This document shows, piece after piece, positions 1 to 36,000 of a DNA stretch of 64,000 bases. Positions within the stretch are counted from its first letter, which is position 1. Every line of letters begins with the position of its first letter. The stretch is from Lepus europaeus (Eukaryota; Chordata; Mammalia; Lagomorpha; Leporidae), in contig NC_084837.1 of assembly GCF_033115175.1 (NCBI RefSeq), positions 90,640,499-90,704,498 of the forward strand, in the 5' to 3' direction. The position numbers and the translations under genes were made by a program. The notes under the pieces were generated by a model that saw only the letters and a list, made by a program, of their open reading frames with translations, had not been told where the DNA came from and searched no databases.

Positions 1-981
1 GCATTGGTACATGCCACCTTGATGGGATTGTATTGGAATCCCCTGGCACGATTCTAACTCTATTATTCGGGGCAAGTCCGATTTTGCATGTCCCCAATTG
101 TATATCTCCTCCCTCTCTTTTTCTCATTCTTATATTTAACCGGGATCACTTTTCAGTTAAGATTTAAACACCTAAGAATAGTTGTGTGTTAATTACAGAG
201 TTCAAGCATTAGTACTAGAACAAAAAAAAATACTAAGATGGATAAAGTATTACATTGTACATCAACAGTCAGCACAAGATCTGATCAAGTCACTGTTTCT
301 CATAGTGTCCATTTCACTTCCACAGGTTTCCCCTTTGGTGCTCAGTTAGTTGTCACCAATCAGGGAAAACAAATGATATTTGTCTCTTTGGGACTGGCTT
401 AATTCACTCAGCATGATGTTTTCCAGATTGCTCCATCTTGTTGCAAATGACCGGGTTTCATTGTTTTTGACTGCTGTATAGTATTCTATAGAGTACATGT
501 CCCATAGTTTCTTTATCCAGTCTACTGTTGATGGGCATTGGGTTGGTTCCAGGTATTAGCTATTGTGAACTGAGCTGCAATAAACATTAATGTGCAGATG
601 GCTTTTTTGTTTGCCAATTTAATTTCCTTTGGGTAAATTCCAAGGAGTGGGATGGCTGGGTTGAATGGTAGGGTTATATTCAGGTTTCTGAGGAATCTCC
701 AGACTGACTTCCATAGTGGCTTAACCAGTTTTCATTCCCATCAACAGTGGGTTAGTGTCCCTTTTTCCCCACATCCTCTCCAGCATCTATTGTTGGTAGA
801 TTTCTGAATGTGAGCCATTCTAACCGGGGTGAGGTGAAACCTCATTGTGGTTTTGATTTGCATTTCTCTGATTGCTAGTTAGTGATCTTGAACATTTTTT
901 CATGTGTCTGCTGGCCATTTGGATTTCCTCTTTGGAAAGATGTCTGTTGAGGTCTTTGGCCCATCTCTTAAGTGGATTAGT
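1..981 (-). mobile_element. L1 fragment, inverted half of a twin-primed insertion
   Basis: This is antisense L1 sequence. Its complement matches the ORF2 C-terminal region and 3'UTR seen in sense at about 2975-3830. The right end is inside ORF2 and the left end of the window is already in the 3'UTR. At about 981 the sequence switches abruptly to sense L1 3'UTR. That arrangement, an inverted 5' piece followed by a direct 3' piece ending in poly(A), is what twin priming during L1 insertion produces. The left boundary and left TSD lie outside the window. No open frame survives. Confidence 0.85.
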
Positions 982-1767
982 ACTGTGGCCTCAGAATCAG
1001 CCCTTAAGGCATTTGGATCTGGCTGAAGAGCCTATGAGAGTATTTTAGGCGTGAAAAGCCAAGACACTCTGGAAAAAAAAAAGAAGAAGAAGGAAGAAGG
1101 AAGAAGAAGACCTAAATGAAGGATCTCAGCGAGTGTGATCCCAGTGGAAAGAACGGGGCCATCAAGGTAGGAGGTACCTTTCTCTGAAGGGAGGAGAGAA
1201 CTTCCACTTTGACTATGACCCTGTCGGAATAAGATCGAAGTTGGTGAACCCTAAAGGCTTCCATAGCCTCGGCAACCCATGACTAGAGCCTAGGGAGATT
1301 ACTGACACCATAAACAAGAGTGTTAAATTGTTAAATCAACATCAAGAGTCACTGTGTATTTACGTCCCATGTGGGATCTGTCCTTAATGGGTTGTCCAAT
1401 GTGAAGTAATGATATAGCTAGTACTGAAACAGTATTTTTATACTTTGTGTTTACGTGTGGGTGCAAACTGATGAAATCTTTACTTAGTATATACTGAATC
1501 GATCTTCTGTATATAAAGATAATTGAAAATGAAAAAAAAAAAAAACCTTGGTGTTAAATTGGAAATTACATAGAAAATTAATCAATTTTTTAAAAAAATA
1601 TCATGTAGGATCTCTGTCATTAATATGCTGTACACTGTTATTTAATGCTATACTCCAACAATATTTTTTCACTTTGTGTTGCTATGTGAGGACAAACTGT
1701 TGAAATCTTTATATATACTAAACTGATTTTCTGTATATAAAGAGAATTGAAAATGAAAAAAAAAAAA
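982..1767 (+). mobile_element. L1 3'UTR, direct half of the twin-primed insertion
   Basis: Sense L1 3'UTR starting at the same module found at about 4014 in the next element. It contains both halves of the leporid 3'UTR (the two 'ctgtatataaag' modules near 1508 and 1732) and ends in 12 A's at 1756-1767. A short GA-rich tract (AAGAAGAAGG-like, about 1073-1110) lies inside. The A-tail served as the landing site for the next composite insertion. Confidence 0.85.
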
Positions 1768-1771
1768 TCCC

Positions 1772-2288
1772 GGGGGGCCGAGAGCGCCGGGCGCTCGCCG
1801 CTCGCTCTCTCCCCGCCGTGCGCTCGTCGCCCGTCTGGGCCCGAGCCAGGCGATGAGGTGGGAGGCGCCAGAAGCCACTTAGCTACCGCCACCCGCCCAA
1901 TGCAGCAGTCGCTCGCTCACAATGCAGCACTGAGGCGGCGGCGCGGCGCAGGCTGCAGCGCGGCCGGGGGCAGCCGACCCGGGCGGGCGGCCTCGGCGCC
2001 CCGGGCGTGAGCAGCGGCGCGCGTCGGGCGAGGCGGGCTGGCGGTGGCACCATGCGGGCGGCGGCGGGGCCCTTCCTGCTGCTCTGCGCCCTGGGGACCT
2101 GCCCCGTGGCGCGCTGCGGCCGGGCAGGGGACGCCTCGCTGGCGGGGCTGGAGAGGAGGAAGGAAAACCGCTTCCTGGAGCGCCAGAGCACCGTGCCCCT
2201 GCGCCTCGTCTACCGCGCGGGCGGCGGGGACGAAACTCGCCACGACGAGCTGGACACGCGGGTGCGGGGCCACCCCGGCGGCCGGCAG
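1772..2288 (+). pseudogene. ADAM22: ADAM22 first coding segment, retrocopied fragment
   Basis: GC- and CpG-rich sequence with a 280-bp leader, then an ATG at 2052 in good context (GCACCATGC). It opens 79 codons that match the ADAM22 N-terminus: a leucine-rich signal peptide (residues 1-22, core [11 protein letters not shown]), then the start of the prodomain with [18 protein letters not shown] and DTRVRG. Homology stops after the Gln codon CAG at 2286-2288, which looks like an exon end. L1 follows directly and the frame stops at 2292. ADAM22 is a catalytically inactive neuronal ADAM that binds LGI1. None of its metalloprotease-like, disintegrin or membrane regions are here, so this copy cannot make it. 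The intact frame and retained CpGs suggest a fairly recent insertion. In human ADAM22 is on chromosome 7 and SPESP1 on chromosome 15, so this is not the parental locus if synteny holds. Confidence 0.85.
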
Positions 2289-4615
2289 AAATGATGCTGA
2301 AATTCATATGGAGACACAGGAGACCTCGAATAGCTAAAGCAATCTTGTACAACAAAAACAAAGCCAGGGGCATCACAATACCAGATCTTAGGACATACTA
2401 CAGGGCAGTAGTTATCAAAACAGCATGGTACTGGTACAGAAACAGATGGATAGACCAATGGAACAGAATAGAAACACCAGAAATCAATCCAAACATCTAC
2501 AGCCAACTTACATTTGATCAAGGATCCAAAACCAATCCCTGGAGTAAGGACAGTCTATTCAATAAATGGTGCTGGGAAAACTGGATTTCCACGTGCAGAA
2601 TCATGAAGCAAGATCCCTACCTTTCACCTTACACAAAAATTCACTCAACATGGATTAAAGACTTAAATCTATGACCCGACACCATCAAATTATTAGAGAG
2701 CATTGCAGAAACCCTGCAAGATATAGGTACCGGTAAAGACTTCTTGGAAAATACCCCAGAAGCACAGGCAGTCAAAGCCAAAATTAACTATTGGGATTGC
2801 ATCAAATTGAGAAGTTTCTGTACTGCAAAAGAGATAGTCAGGAAAGTGAAGAGGCAACCAACAGAATGGGAAAAAATATTTGCAAACTATGCAACAGATA
2901 AAGGGTTGATAACCAGAATCTACAAAGAAATCAAGAAACTATACAACATCAAAACAAACAACCCACTTAAGAGATGGGCCAAGGACCTCAGTAGACATTT
3001 TTCGAAAGAGGAAATCCAAATGGCCAACAGACACATGAAAAATGTTCAAGATCACTAGCAATCAGGGAAATGCAAATCAAAACCACAATGAGGTTTCACC
3101 TCACCCCGGTGAGAATGGCTCACATTCAGAAATCTACCAACAATAGATGCTGGAGAGGATGTGGGGAAAAAGGGACACTAACCCACTGTTGGTGGGAATG
3201 CAAACTGGTTAAGCCACTATGGAAGTCAGTCTGGAGATTCCTCAGAAACCTGAATATAACCCTACCATACAACCCAGCCATACCACTCCTTGGAATTTAC
3301 CCAAAGGAAATTAAATTGGCAAACAAAAAAGCTGTCTGCACCTTAATGTTTATCACAGCTCAATTCACAATAGCTAAGACCTGGAACCAACCCAAATGCC
3401 CATCAACAGTAGACTGGATAAAGAAATTATGGGACATGTACTCCATAGAATACTATACAGCAGTCAAAAACAATGAAACCCAGTCATTTGCAACAAGATG
3501 GAGGAATCTGGAAAACATCATGCTGAGTGAATTAAGCCAGTCCCAAAGAGACAAATATCATTTGTTTTCCCTGATGGGCGACAACTAACTGAGCACCAAA
3601 GGGGAAACCGTTGAAGTGAAATGGACACTATGAGAAACATATATTATTCTTAGGTGTTTAAATTTTAACTGAAAAGTGATCCCTGTTAAATATAAGAGTG
3701 GGAAAGAGAGAGGGAGATGTACAATTTGGGGCATGCTCAATCAGACTTGCCCCAAATGGTGGAGTTAGAAACGTGCCAGGGGATTCCAATACAATCCCAT
3801 CAAGGTGGCATGTACCAATGCCATCTCACTAGTCCAAGTGATCAATTTCAGTTCACAATTCATCACACTGATAGGTTTAAGAGTCAAAAGGATCACACAA
3901 ACAAGACAAGTGTCTGCTAATACTAACTGATAGAATCAAAAAGGGAGAGAAGGATCCAACATGGGAAGTGGGATACACAGCAGACTCATAGAATGGCAGA
4001 TGTCCCAAACAACACTCTGGCCTCAGAATCAGCCCTGAAGGCATTCGGATCTGGCTGAAGAGCCCATGAGAGTATTTTAGGCATGAAAGCCAAGACACTC
4101 TGGAAAAAAAAAAAAAAAGAAGACCTAAATGAAACATCTCTGCGAGTAAGATCCCAGTGGAAAGAACAGGCCATCAAAGAAGGAGGTACCTTTCTCTGAA
4201 GGGAGGAGAGAACTTCCACTTTGACTATGACCCTGTCGGAATAAGATCAAAGTCAGCAAACCCTAAAGGCTTCCATAGCCTTGGAAACTCATATGACTAG
4301 AGCCTAGGGAGATTACTGACGCCATAAATAAGAGTGTCAAATTGTTAAATCAACAACAGGAATCATTGTGTACTTACGTCTCATGTCAGATCTGTCCTTA
4401 ATGTGTTGTCCAATGTGAATTAATGCTATAACTAGTACTGAAACAGTATTTTTACACCTTGTGTTTCTGTGTGGGTGCAAACTGATGAAATCTTTACTTA
4501 GTATATACTGAATCGATCTTCTGTATATAAAGATAATTGAAAATGAAAAAACTTGGTGTTAAATTGGAAATTGCATAGAAAATTAATCAATTATTTAAAA
4601 AATATCATGTAGGAT
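2289..4615 (+). mobile_element. L1 ORF2 C-terminal part and 3'UTR within the composite
   Basis: Starts at the ORF2 stretch 'aaatgatgctg', downstream of the reverse-transcriptase domain; the same stretch lies near 35396 in another L1. It continues through the ORF2 C-terminus in three broken open stretches (2291-2674, 2744-3058, 3070-3588) and the 3'UTR. The C-terminal cysteine-rich motif is visible around 3140-3210 ([18 protein letters not shown]). The 3'UTR breaks off at 4615, within the 'catgtagga' module, where the LTR begins. No endonuclease or polymerase domain is present, so it is non-autonomous. Confidence 0.85.
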
Positions 4616-4942
4616 TGTAGTGGAATGAGAAGGCCATGCCAAGGTGGCCACTGGCAAGCGAGCGTCAGTTAGTCAGGAATGGCTTTGAAACTGCCTAGCA
4701 ACAGGCTGTGATTGGATGGCTCTGGAAACTGCCTGGCGACAGGCTGTGATTGGATGGATTTGAAACTGCCTGGCGACAGGCTGTGATTGGATGGCTGTGG
4801 AAACTGCCTGGCAACAGGCTGTGATTGGTTGGGGTATGGACCGCCCCTTGACCAGATTGGCTGGTCTTGGCTATATAAGCTGTTGTACCAACTGTAATAA
4901 ACGAGTCTGCGGGCTGCTTGCCTCAAGCCTGCTTTCACCCGG
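4616..4942 (+). mobile_element. Endogenous retroviral LTR (U3-R) ending at its poly(A) site
   Basis: Begins with TG (TGTAGTGG) exactly where L1 3'UTR homology stops, as expected for an LTR inserted into that L1. It has a U3-like region with four tandem repeats, a TATA box (TATATAA, 4872-4878), AATAAA at 4896-4901 and a run of 21 A's starting at 4943. The U5 end is missing, which fits an RNA cleaved and polyadenylated in the LTR rather than a genomic LTR. Class and family were not determined. No retroviral genes accompany it. Confidence 0.72.
4679..4828 (+). repeat. Four tandem 37-38 bp repeats with inverted CCAAT boxes in the LTR U3
   Basis: Units start near 4679, 4716, 4754 and 4791 and share the core ACAGGCTGTGATTGG. 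The repeated ATTGG is an inverted CCAAT box (NF-Y type). Direct repeats of this kind are typical retroviral U3 enhancers. They sit 45-190 bp upstream of the TATA box at 4872. Confidence 0.8.
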
Positions 4943-4967
4943 AAAAAAAAAAAAAAAAAAAAATCCC

Positions 4968-5409
4968 AAATAGAGTCAGCAGGGGGCCTCTGCCTCAACC
5001 TGACAGCAGATTCCCCCCGGGCAGAGAAGAGCAAGCTGGGGAAATGAGGGCAAAGGGCTCCCTCTGCACCTGCTCCGGGCTTCTCTGGGTTGTCAACCTA
5101 ATGCAGACAAGAATCAGAGAGAGGGAGGCTCCCTGGAGAATCGTGGCATTCATTTGGGAGAGCCAGAGCATGGCAATGGAATTACCATGGCATCCCAGTG
5201 TCAATATACAATGCTAGAATAAACTATAGGAAGATTCAAGGAGGTTGAGGCAAAGGGAAGGTTTTAAAGGGAAAAATGAGGAGGAGGATTGCATCGAACG
5301 TTTTGAGACAATTATCTTTAGCCACAATGATTAGTAAGCAGAGGCATTAGTCTGAGATTGGACAGACCATCGATGGGCAGGTGTCCTTGCAGAAGTATCA
5401 TTTTGTGTG
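4968..5409. other. Unassigned sequence after the composite insertion
   Basis: No gene or familiar repeat recognised. It continues from the TSD of the composite. The left part is GC-moderate, and short open frames on both strands show no recognisable protein. Confidence 0.4.
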
Positions 5410-6099: not shown

Positions 6100-6590
6100 T
6101 TTATTTAAATCAGGACTGTCAAAGAAAAATATTCTGTCAGCCATTCATGAGAATTTAATTATGGTGCACATAAAAAAGTCATGAGACATTCCTGTTTTGT
6201 AATAAACAAGGCAGTTGCCAGTCATTACTCATTAGTATCATTTCTGAGATGAGCTATCGAGCCTGCCCTTTCATTCTTCTCTTGATGCCAGCGAGGATTA
6301 GTTTGGTTCCAGGATGTATTTCTTGGGATTCTCCAAATCCTCCATCAGAGGGTCCTCTCCCCAGGGGATGCGTTTGCTCTTGGTGGTGTCTGTGCAGGGG
6401 AAGCCAACAGCCTGACCTGTCTTCCGCCTAATCAGACCAGGGAGACTTGGTCCAGTCTTGTGCTTGCCTCCCTTTCCACATTTCTGAACAAAAATGTTCT
6501 TGCCGTGCTCGACAGCACCCATTTTTAACTCTTTCGTCGCTCTTATTTCAGAGGGCTGCACTGGGAAGCTGGACGTCCTGCTCGCCAAAG
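6100..6590 (-). pseudogene. CYCS: CYCS (cytochrome c) processed pseudogene
   Basis: Intronless antisense copy of somatic cytochrome c mRNA. The start codon complement is at 6520-6522 and the stop at 6225-6227. Readable blocks include [15 protein letters not shown] and LENPKKYI. Two lesions are clear. A deletion of about 21 bases after FVQKC removes the CxxCH haem-attachment motif, and a one-base shift after NPKKYI causes an early stop before the frame is regained near the end. Sequence left of the stop resembles the CYCS 3'UTR (poly-T run and 'ctcatgac' block). Functional cytochrome c carries electrons between complexes III and IV. This copy cannot bind haem covalently and is dead. A C repeat abuts its 5' end. 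Confidence 0.92.
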
Positions 6591-33072: not shown

Positions 33073-36000
33073 TGAATGGATTAAAAAACAAAACGCATCT
33101 ATTTGCTGCCTAAAAGAAACACATCTCACCAACAAAGACACATGCAGACTTAAAGCGAAAGGATGGAGAAAGATATTCCATGCTAGCAGAAACCAAAAAA
33201 GGACTGGCACAGCCATCCTAATATCAGAAAAGATAGACTTTAAAACAAAAACTGTTAAATGAAACAAAGGGCAGTATGTTAGATGTGACTACTATAAACA
33301 TAAATGCAACTAATTACAGGGCACCTGGCTATTTGAAAGAAATGTTAATGGATTTAAAGGGAGACGCAGACTCCAGTACAATAGTAATGGGGGACTTCAA
33401 TACCCCACTTTCAGCAATGGACAGATCAACCAAGAGAACAGAAAATCAACAAGGAAACAGAGTTAATCAACACTATAGACCAAGTGGGCCTAATGAATAT
33501 CTGCAGAACTTTTCATCCCACAGCCACAGAATGCACATTCTTCTCCCCAGTGCATGGAATCTTCTCTTGGCTACACCGCATGCTAGACCATAAAACAATT
33601 CTCAGCAAATTCAAAAACATCAAAAATCAAAACCATGTGTCTTCTCTGACTACAATGGAATGAAGCTGGAAATCAACAAGTCAGGAATCTCTAGAGCATA
33701 TGCAAACACATGGAGACTGAACAACATGCTCCTGAATGAACAATGGGTTCATTTGATTTAAAGAAATCAAAAGAGGAATCGAAAAATTTCAGGAAATGAA
33801 TGAAGCCGACAATACAAAATATCAAAACTTATGGGATACAGCAAAAGCACTGTTAAGAGGAAAGTTTATAGCAATCGGTGCCTACATCAAGAAATTGGGA
33901 AGGGACCAAATAAATGAGCTATCAATGCATCTCAAGGACCCAGAAAAACAACAGCAAACCAAACCCAAAACTAGTAGGAGAAAAGAAATAATTAAAATTA
34001 GAGAAGAAATAAACAGAATTGAAACAAAACAAAACAAAACAAAATACAAAAGATCAGCAAAGTGAAGAGCTGGTTTTTTGAAAAAATAAACAAAATTGAC
34101 ACACCATTGACCCGACTAACAAAAAAAAAAAAAAAAAAGGAGAAGACCCAAATCAATAAAATTAGAGATGAAAAAGGAAATGTAACAGACACCACAGAAA
34201 TAATAAGAATCCTCAGAAATTACTACAAATAGCTGTATGCCAACAAACAGGAAACCTGAAGAAGTGGATAGATTCCTGGACACATACAATTAAGCCATGA
34301 AGACACAGAAAACCTAAACAGACCCATAACCAAGACAGAACTTGAATTATTAATAAAGACCTTACCAACAAAGAAAAGCCGAGGACCAGATGGCTTCACT
34401 ACTATATTCTATCAGATGTTTAAAGAAGAACTAACTCCAATTTTCCTCAGGTTGTTCAAAACAATTGAAAGGGAGGGAATCCTCCAAAACTCATCTATGA
34501 AGCCAGCATCACCTTAATTCCTAAACTTGAAAAAGATACAACAGAAAAAGAGAACTACAGGCCAATTTCCCTGATGAACATAGATGTAAAAATCCTCAAC
34601 AAAATACTAGCCAATCGAATCCAACAACACATCAGAAAAATCATTCACCCAGACCAAGCAGGGTTTATCCCTGATACGTAGGGATGATTCAACATTTGCA
34701 AATCAATCAATGTGATACACCACATTAACAAATTGAAGAACAAAAACATGATTATCTCCATAGATGTAGAGAAAGCATTTGAGAAAATATAATACCCTTT
34801 CGTGATGAAAACTTTAAGCAAATTGGGTATAGAAGGAACATTCCTCAACATAATCACAGCAATTTATGACACACCCATGGCCAGCATCCTATTGAATGAG
34901 GAAAATTCCAAAGCATTCCCTTTGAAATCCAGAACCAGACAAGGATACCCACCCTCACCATTGCTATTCAATATAGTCCTGGAAGTTTTAGCCAGAGCCG
35001 TTAGGCAAGAAAAAGAAATCAAGGGGATACAAATTGGGGAGGAGGAAGATAAACTATGACTTGATTGCAGATGACATGTTTCTATATTTGGGGGGGTCCA
35101 AAGATTCCTGGTAAGTGGCAGGATACAAAGTCAACACACAAAAATCAATAGCCTTTGTATACACAGACAGTCCCACAGCTGAGAAAGAACTTCCAAGATC
35201 AATCACATTCACAATAGCTACAAAAACAATCAAATAATTTGGAATAAATTTAACCAAGGATGTCAAAGATTTTTATGATGAGAACTACAAAACATTAAAG
35301 AAAGAAATAGAAGAAGTGGCAAAAAAAAAGCAATATACAGACTCAATGTGATACCAATCAAAATACCAATGACATTCTTCTCAGATATGGAAAAAATGAT
35401 GCTGAAATTCATATAGAAACACAGGAGACCCAGAATAGCTAAAGCAATGTTATAAAAAAATGCTGGAGGCATCACAATACCAGATTTTAAGACATAGTAA
35501 AGGGCAGTCATAATCAAAACAGCCTGGTACTGATACAAAAACAGATGGATAAACCAATGGAACAGAATAGAAATGCCAGAAATTAACACATGCATCTACA
35601 ACCAAGTTATTTTTGACAAAGTCAAAGTCAATCCCTGGAGCAAGGACAGTCCCTTCAACAAATGGTGCTGGGAAAACTGGATCTCCACATGCAGAAGTAT
35701 GAAGCAAGACCTCCACTTTACACTTTACACAAAATCCACTCAAAATGGATTAAACACCTAGATCTATGACCTGGTACCATCAAATTATTAGAGAATATTG
35801 GGGAAACCCTGCAAGACATTGGCATAGGCAAAGAGTTCTTTGAAAAGACCCCAGAGACAAAGCAATCAAAGCCAAAATTGACAAATGGGCTACATCAAAT
35901 TGAGAAGCTTCTGCATTGCAAAAGAAATACTCAGGAAAAGTGGATAGGCAACAGACAGAATGGGAGAAATTATTTGCAAACTATGCAACTGGTAAAAGAT

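Follow-up and report, generated by a model that had tools for sequence, protein, structure and literature searches.

A composite ADAM22-L1-LTR-like insert in the Lepus europaeus genome with the features of a retroposed splice chimera

Overview of the Insert

Positions 1772-4963 of the stretch analysed here (64,000 nucleotides of Lepus europaeus contig NC_084837.1, hereafter "the window") form a single composite insert, in which the 5' end of ADAM22, an L1 segment, an LTR-like piece and a run of 21 A's follow each other in the same orientation. The ADAM22 exon ends exactly at its donor, the L1 open reading frame is broken and the L1 3' end is missing, and the whole is closed by a tail and enclosed by a flanking repeat. 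With good confidence, we read the insert as a spliced ADAM22-L1-LTR RNA, made in cis or in trans, that was retroposed by L1 proteins. Such an RNA would start at the ADAM22 promoter, and the first coding exon or exons of the gene would be joined, from their usual donor, to a cryptic acceptor within the ORF2 region of an old, dead L1 on the same strand. This source L1 would most simply lie in the following ADAM22 intron and would have carried an LTR in its 3'UTR, the RNA ending at the poly(A) site of that LTR. L1 proteins supplied in trans would then have copied this RNA into DNA within the poly(A) tail of a different L1, and a target-site duplication (TSD) would have resulted. The features of the insert and its surroundings are the following:

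1..980, minus strand: inverted part of the resident older L1; inverted-repeat arms with 2960-3821
981..1767, plus strand: forward 3'UTR and A12 tail of the resident older L1 (insertion target); direct repeats with 4014-4615, 84-97%
1756..1771, plus strand: 5' copy of the TSD, A12TCCC, from sequence identity
1772..2288, plus strand: ADAM22 first coding exon(s), from protein homologues; ATG at 2052, end at the donor CAG 2286-2288
2126..2128, plus strand: possible internal ADAM22 exon-exon boundary (2126/2127 or 2127/2128), GCA/GGG or GCAG/GG before GAC
2289..3588, plus strand: C-terminal part of L1 ORF2 (human ORF2p ~843-1275), interrupted by an in-frame stop and by a frameshift
3589..4615, plus strand: L1 3'UTR, broken off at ATGTAGGAT; two other L1 copies of the window go on with CTCTGT
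4616..4942, plus strand: LTR-like sequence; TG start, tandem repeats 4679-4832, TATATAA at 4872, AATAAA at 4896, apparent poly(A) site at the end
4943..4963, plus strand: A21, comprising the poly(A) of the insert and the A portion of the 3' TSD
4952..4967, plus strand: 3' copy of the TSD, A12TCCC, from sequence identity

The original prediction had described a composite of ADAM22, L1 and LTR parts in one orientation, closed by 21 A's. Protein matches, repeat alignments and motifs bear out this composite, the A-run is found at 4943-4963, and the two internal junctions, previously placed within 2280-2300 and 4606-4626, are now fixed at 2288/2289 (ADAM22/L1) and 4615/4616 (L1/LTR-like). As to its further claim, that a chimeric RNA was retroposed as one unit, the succession of an ADAM22 5' end, an L1 and an LTR-like terminator is well supported, and the part that places the origin in cis, in an ADAM22 intron, is only likely; splicing in cis alone deserves less confidence than splicing as such. 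Among the points against a spliced and retroposed RNA is the expression of ADAM22, which is chiefly that of a brain gene; for an insertion to be inherited, the RNA has to be made in the germline or the early embryo.

On the minus strand at 6298-6588, the window also harbors a sequence resembling a cytochrome c processed pseudogene, whose best PDB match is somatic cytochrome c (E 2e-25). A Pfam scan of six pieces gives no match, even for L1 ORF2 and for this cytochrome c pseudogene, both found by the PDB search, and this negative therefore carries no weight. Rfam yields 0 matches at the gathering threshold across the whole window.

The ADAM22 Part

The gene part is 517 nt long, and its reading frame from 2052 comprises 79 residues. 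In a protein search, 2052-2288 matches the N-termini of ADAM22 in 12 of 13 candidate proteins (best E 3e-33); all 12 homologues were retrieved in full and aligned, and identity to eight mammalian ones is 73-82%. The assignment of the 5' segment to ADAM22 in the original prediction is thereby upheld for the coding part, whereas the 280 nt before the ATG (1772-2051) are read as ADAM22 5'UTR because they are contiguous with it and GC-rich in composition. A transcript start is deduced from these 280 nt. As in mRNA-L1 chimeric insertions, the gene part is in sense orientation to the L1 and would stand at the beginning of the transcript, with the coding start present. The claim of a CpG-rich 5' end also holds: 1772-2288 contains 77 CpGs, with an observed/expected ratio of 0.98, a high content suggesting that the gene part is young or has been kept unmethylated.

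A further ADAM22 intron, absent from the window copy, may separate the signal peptide from GDASL, as four of the 12 homologues (P0009-P0012) lose similarity directly before GDASL and display intron-like residues there. The reading phases of these four disagree, and this putative intron is therefore taken as a hint of splicing, nothing stronger. A PDB search with the ADAM22 exon gives no match up to E 1; the ADAM22 structures are not known to include the part that this exon encodes.

The L1 Part and the Source of the RNA

Within the L1 part, 2291-2671 resembles residues ~845-969 of human L1 ORF2p, and 3070-3585 residues ~1104-1275. The in-frame stop lies at 2672-2674 and the frameshift before 3058, and ORF2 is present only from about residue 843, so that the near full-length coding L1 of mRNA-L1 chimeric insertions is not what is found here. 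Among the best 120 of 7874 rows retrieved with the L1 protein fragment, six from Oryctolagus cuniculus display 88-94% identity, and the remaining ones 52-65%, save one at 93%; judged by these values, the window has a leporid look. The CpG observed/expected ratio of the L1 part is 0.17, against 0.98 in the gene part. This contrast favors an L1 that had already decayed when it was copied over one that decayed later, and the L1 part looks like a dead, decayed passenger.

The state of the L1 also bears on a trans-splicing origin, in which the ADAM22 donor would have been joined to an L1-LTR RNA from another locus before retroposition. Law and Burns lean to trans-splicing where an intronic source is not found; of the 17 gene loci in human mRNA-L1 chimeras, they report 15 to be devoid of an intronic source L1, and favor it for these 15 (PMC13174262). 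Splicing in cis into a same-strand intronic L1 is, however, simpler, and an active L1 RNA is not needed as a partner when the L1 is broken, as it is here. Trans-splicing thus takes only a small share of the confidence placed in a spliced RNA, and cis-splicing the larger one.

The First Junction

Past the final Q that they share with the window copy, 10 of the 12 homologues continue with V and then R or S, as reading through a CAG/GT donor gives. P0002 reads LTHVNQASF after this Q, which is taken as the next exon, and 11 of the 12 homologues thus agree, at the protein level, with a gene part that ends exactly at a splice donor. In the last one (P0001), the continuation is different (GLICLL), with the break also at Q. 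The window copy stops being ADAM22 at the same CAG and goes on as L1. Read against these homologues, the end of the ADAM22 part coincides exactly with an exon boundary, a point that the original prediction had missed. The chance that a random break within 517 nt falls on the donor base or on one of its two neighbors is ~0.6% by simple arithmetic. Given this exact coincidence with the donor, the first junction is very probably a splice and not the product of template switching.

Template switching would mean that the L1 reverse transcriptase, while making the insertion, left an L1-LTR RNA and carried on along an ADAM22 mRNA. Both mRNAs and non-coding RNAs are known to become joined to L1 in chimeras (PMC13174262), and a clean acceptor AG cannot be reconstructed on the L1 side. 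The exact exon end, with its chance of ~0.6%, argues against such a switch, which Law and Burns do not favor where a splice junction is present (PMC13174262); we regard it as improbable.

The L1 part of the insert opens with AAATGATG. The only other L1 copy of the window that spans the junction reads TTCTTCTCAGATATGGAAAAAATGATGCTG at 35375-35404, with GGAAAAAATG before the junction point. In this copy, an acceptor-like ACATTCTTCTCAG ends at 35384, and the base corresponding to the first L1 base of the insert follows 10 nt downstream. The AG of TTCTTCTCAG ranks fourth among the 128 AGs of the copy when scored with a rough acceptor matrix, and is not the base used at the junction. Among 17 rabbit-type ORF2 proteins (15 from Oryctolagus), three are without the motif, one (P0014) begins at it, and 13 have residues upstream, all 13 of which show F(S/A)D(L/V)EK ahead of the junction. 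As no AG adjoins the breakpoint in these copies, the source L1 would have needed a change in the A-run or a substitution creating an AG. To judge from these relatives, the absence of an adjoining AG speaks against the exact junction base being a routine acceptor.

In a spliced RNA, the reading frame would close one codon past the junction (Q-K-stop). Were the L1-LTR part the last exon, nonsense-mediated decay would be expected to spare the RNA. The ORF2 protein that begins at the motif, P0014, is a rabbit model named PEX2 isoform X2, made of 432 residues of L1 ORF2 starting at MVLKFIW, and this start coincides with the first ATG of the L1 in the insert. It may represent a second rabbit transcript entering an L1 near the same place, bearing in mind that this is a database model whose start methionine could have other causes. 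Should the PEX2 model be correct, a recurrent acceptor may exist at this place in rabbit L1 ORF2.

The Second Junction and the LTR-Like End

The LTR-like piece begins with TG inside the L1 3'UTR, at the point where the other two L1 copies have CTCTGT. Like the LTRs of endogenous retroviruses, it starts with TG and carries a TATA box, a poly(A) signal and U3 repeats. The repeats at 4679-4832 consist of about four copies of a 37-38-nt unit, and the ATTGG motif occurs five times in the LTR-like part. Each of the units carries an ATTGG, an arrangement that resembles an enhancer array. The LTR-like piece has no other copy within the window, so that its ends are not fixed by a second copy. One 21-base LTR pattern has 0 matches in viral contigs, a collection not meant to hold mammals. 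The L1 stretch and the first junction, searched in viral contigs, and the second junction, searched in prokaryote genomes, likewise have 0 matches, and these collections, not being meant for mammals, say nothing on copy number.

The LTR had been described as cut just after its AATAAA. The signal at 4896 does lie near the end; "just after" proves to be loose, the A21 tail starting 41 nt downstream of AATAAA, a distance longer than usual. Beyond the LTR-like piece, the remaining ~145 nt of the L1 3'UTR and the own tail of the L1 are absent, and 4943-5400 has no match elsewhere in the window except for one 33-nt stretch at an A-run. Given this missing L1 3' end, the LTR-like piece probably supplied the poly(A) site at which the RNA ended.

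As LTR insertions into L1s are common, the composite might also have arisen by serial DNA events, an ADAM22-L1 chimera landing first and an LTR inserting into it later. The L1 3' end would then be expected after the LTR; it is missing, tail and TSD adjoin the LTR directly, and a later insertion would also require an exact deletion. A later LTR insertion was rejected on account of the absent L1 3' end, and the serial scenario is very improbable.

The Flanking Repeat and the Target Site

The flanking repeat AAAAAAAAAAAATCCC is 16 nt long, identity being read backward from 1771 and 4967, with a forward extension of 0. This exact identity was correctly predicted as an A12-TCCC repeat, but the length of 16 bp given for the TSD is an upper value. 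Since the A-run merges with the tail of the resident L1 on the left and with that of the insert on the right, the duplication may measure anything from 4 to 16 nt, and TCCC is the sole informative portion. TCCC occurs at ~0.5% of the window positions on either strand, and a chance match of the flanking TCCC is unlikely yet not negligible. TSD and poly(A) enclose the whole unit, as in mRNA-L1 chimeric insertions, the TSD being weakly informative by itself. For this reason, insertion as a unit is deduced jointly from the tail, the order of the parts and the exon-exact junction. An assembly error uniting unrelated pieces is hardly credible, as the exon-exact junction, the TG start, the tail and the matching flanking repeat are all in register.

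The target is the resident older L1, whose A12 tail occupies 1756-1767 and is followed directly by TCCC and the insert. Compared over ungapped inverted arms, the resident L1 and the L1 of the insert differ at 43 of 824 nt, 28 of the differences being transitions. The inverted and forward parts of the resident L1 are arranged in a manner that has the look of twin priming. According to the alignment, its inverted part would run on past the left edge of the window. The insertion reading predicts an empty site made of the resident L1, the A-run, one TCCC and AAATAGAGTC.

Comparison with Known Systems

Ordinary processed pseudogenes are spliced, polyadenylated RNAs inserted by L1 with a TSD and a tail, features which the insert shares. 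It differs from them in consisting mostly of transposable-element sequence, the gene contributing its 5' end only.

The closest relatives are the gene-L1 splice chimeras known in primates, of which the insert has the main features, an adjoining acceptor aside, its dead L1 and LTR-like end making it a variant. For the human reference, Law and Burns 2026 report 17 chimeras that join L1 to an mRNA or lncRNA, six of them with exons ending precisely at donors (PMC13174262). In one of them, RAP1GDS1-L1PA2, the RNA is driven by the gene promoter (PMC13174262). RAP1GDS1-L1PA2, the human mRNA-L1 chimeras and the insert have in common one or several first exons of a gene joined to a sense-strand L1, together with a TSD and poly(A) (PMC13174262). 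The L1s of the human mRNA-L1 chimeras are, in that account, predominantly, although not universally, near full length (PMC13174262). In contrast, the insert harbors no more of ORF2 than roughly its final third, in a broken state, and its RNA ends in an LTR-like piece. An ADAM22-L1 chimera was not found in the titles and abstract beginnings among the literature matches listed, which is not proof of absence.

SVA_F1, with exon 1 of MAST2, and the chimpanzee pt_SVA_D6, with exon 1 of STK40, are described as transposable elements to which a first exon rich in GC has been spliced (PMC6139936, PMC12593883), as is proposed for the insert. The acceptor of pt_SVA_D6 is likewise given as not reconstructable, and its author takes the exact end of the exon as the sign of splicing (PMC6139936, PMC12593883). 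Exon 1 of MRPS18A is reported to enter SVA at the same site, so that splicing of this kind recurs (PMC6139936, PMC12593883). Whereas the insert is known as one copy, both SVA_F1 and pt_SVA_D6, with 84 and 94 copies, are families built on SVA; they show that such families can go together with a captured GC-rich first exon (PMC6139936, PMC12593883). The modules of SVA are a hexamer, an Alu-like part, a VNTR and a SINE-R; the parts assigned in the insert are ADAM22 (2052-2288), L1 (2289-4615) and an LTR-like part with its 37-38-nt unit repeated about four times.

At the RNA level, the L1 exonization suppressed by SAFB offers another parallel, in that a host exon is joined to an intronic transposable element whose acceptor and poly(A) site give a new 3' end (PMC10901741), as is proposed for the insert. 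That process is described for RNA, whereas the insert is a retroposed genomic copy (PMC10901741).

Implications

The safest expectation for the copy number of the insert is a single private event. That it belongs to a leporid family of non-autonomous retroposons, with a CpG-island promoter end, a dead L1 3' body and an LTR terminator, is a long shot. If such a family were real, SVA-like elements would have arisen by a second route, independent of that in apes. The insert also exemplifies in a non-primate how SVA_F1-like elements originate, a CpG-rich first exon being captured by splicing. It suggests, furthermore, that a functional L1 and the L1 3' end are both dispensable, and that an LTR can supply the terminator. 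At its landing site, the CpG-rich 5' part may make the insert a new promoter.
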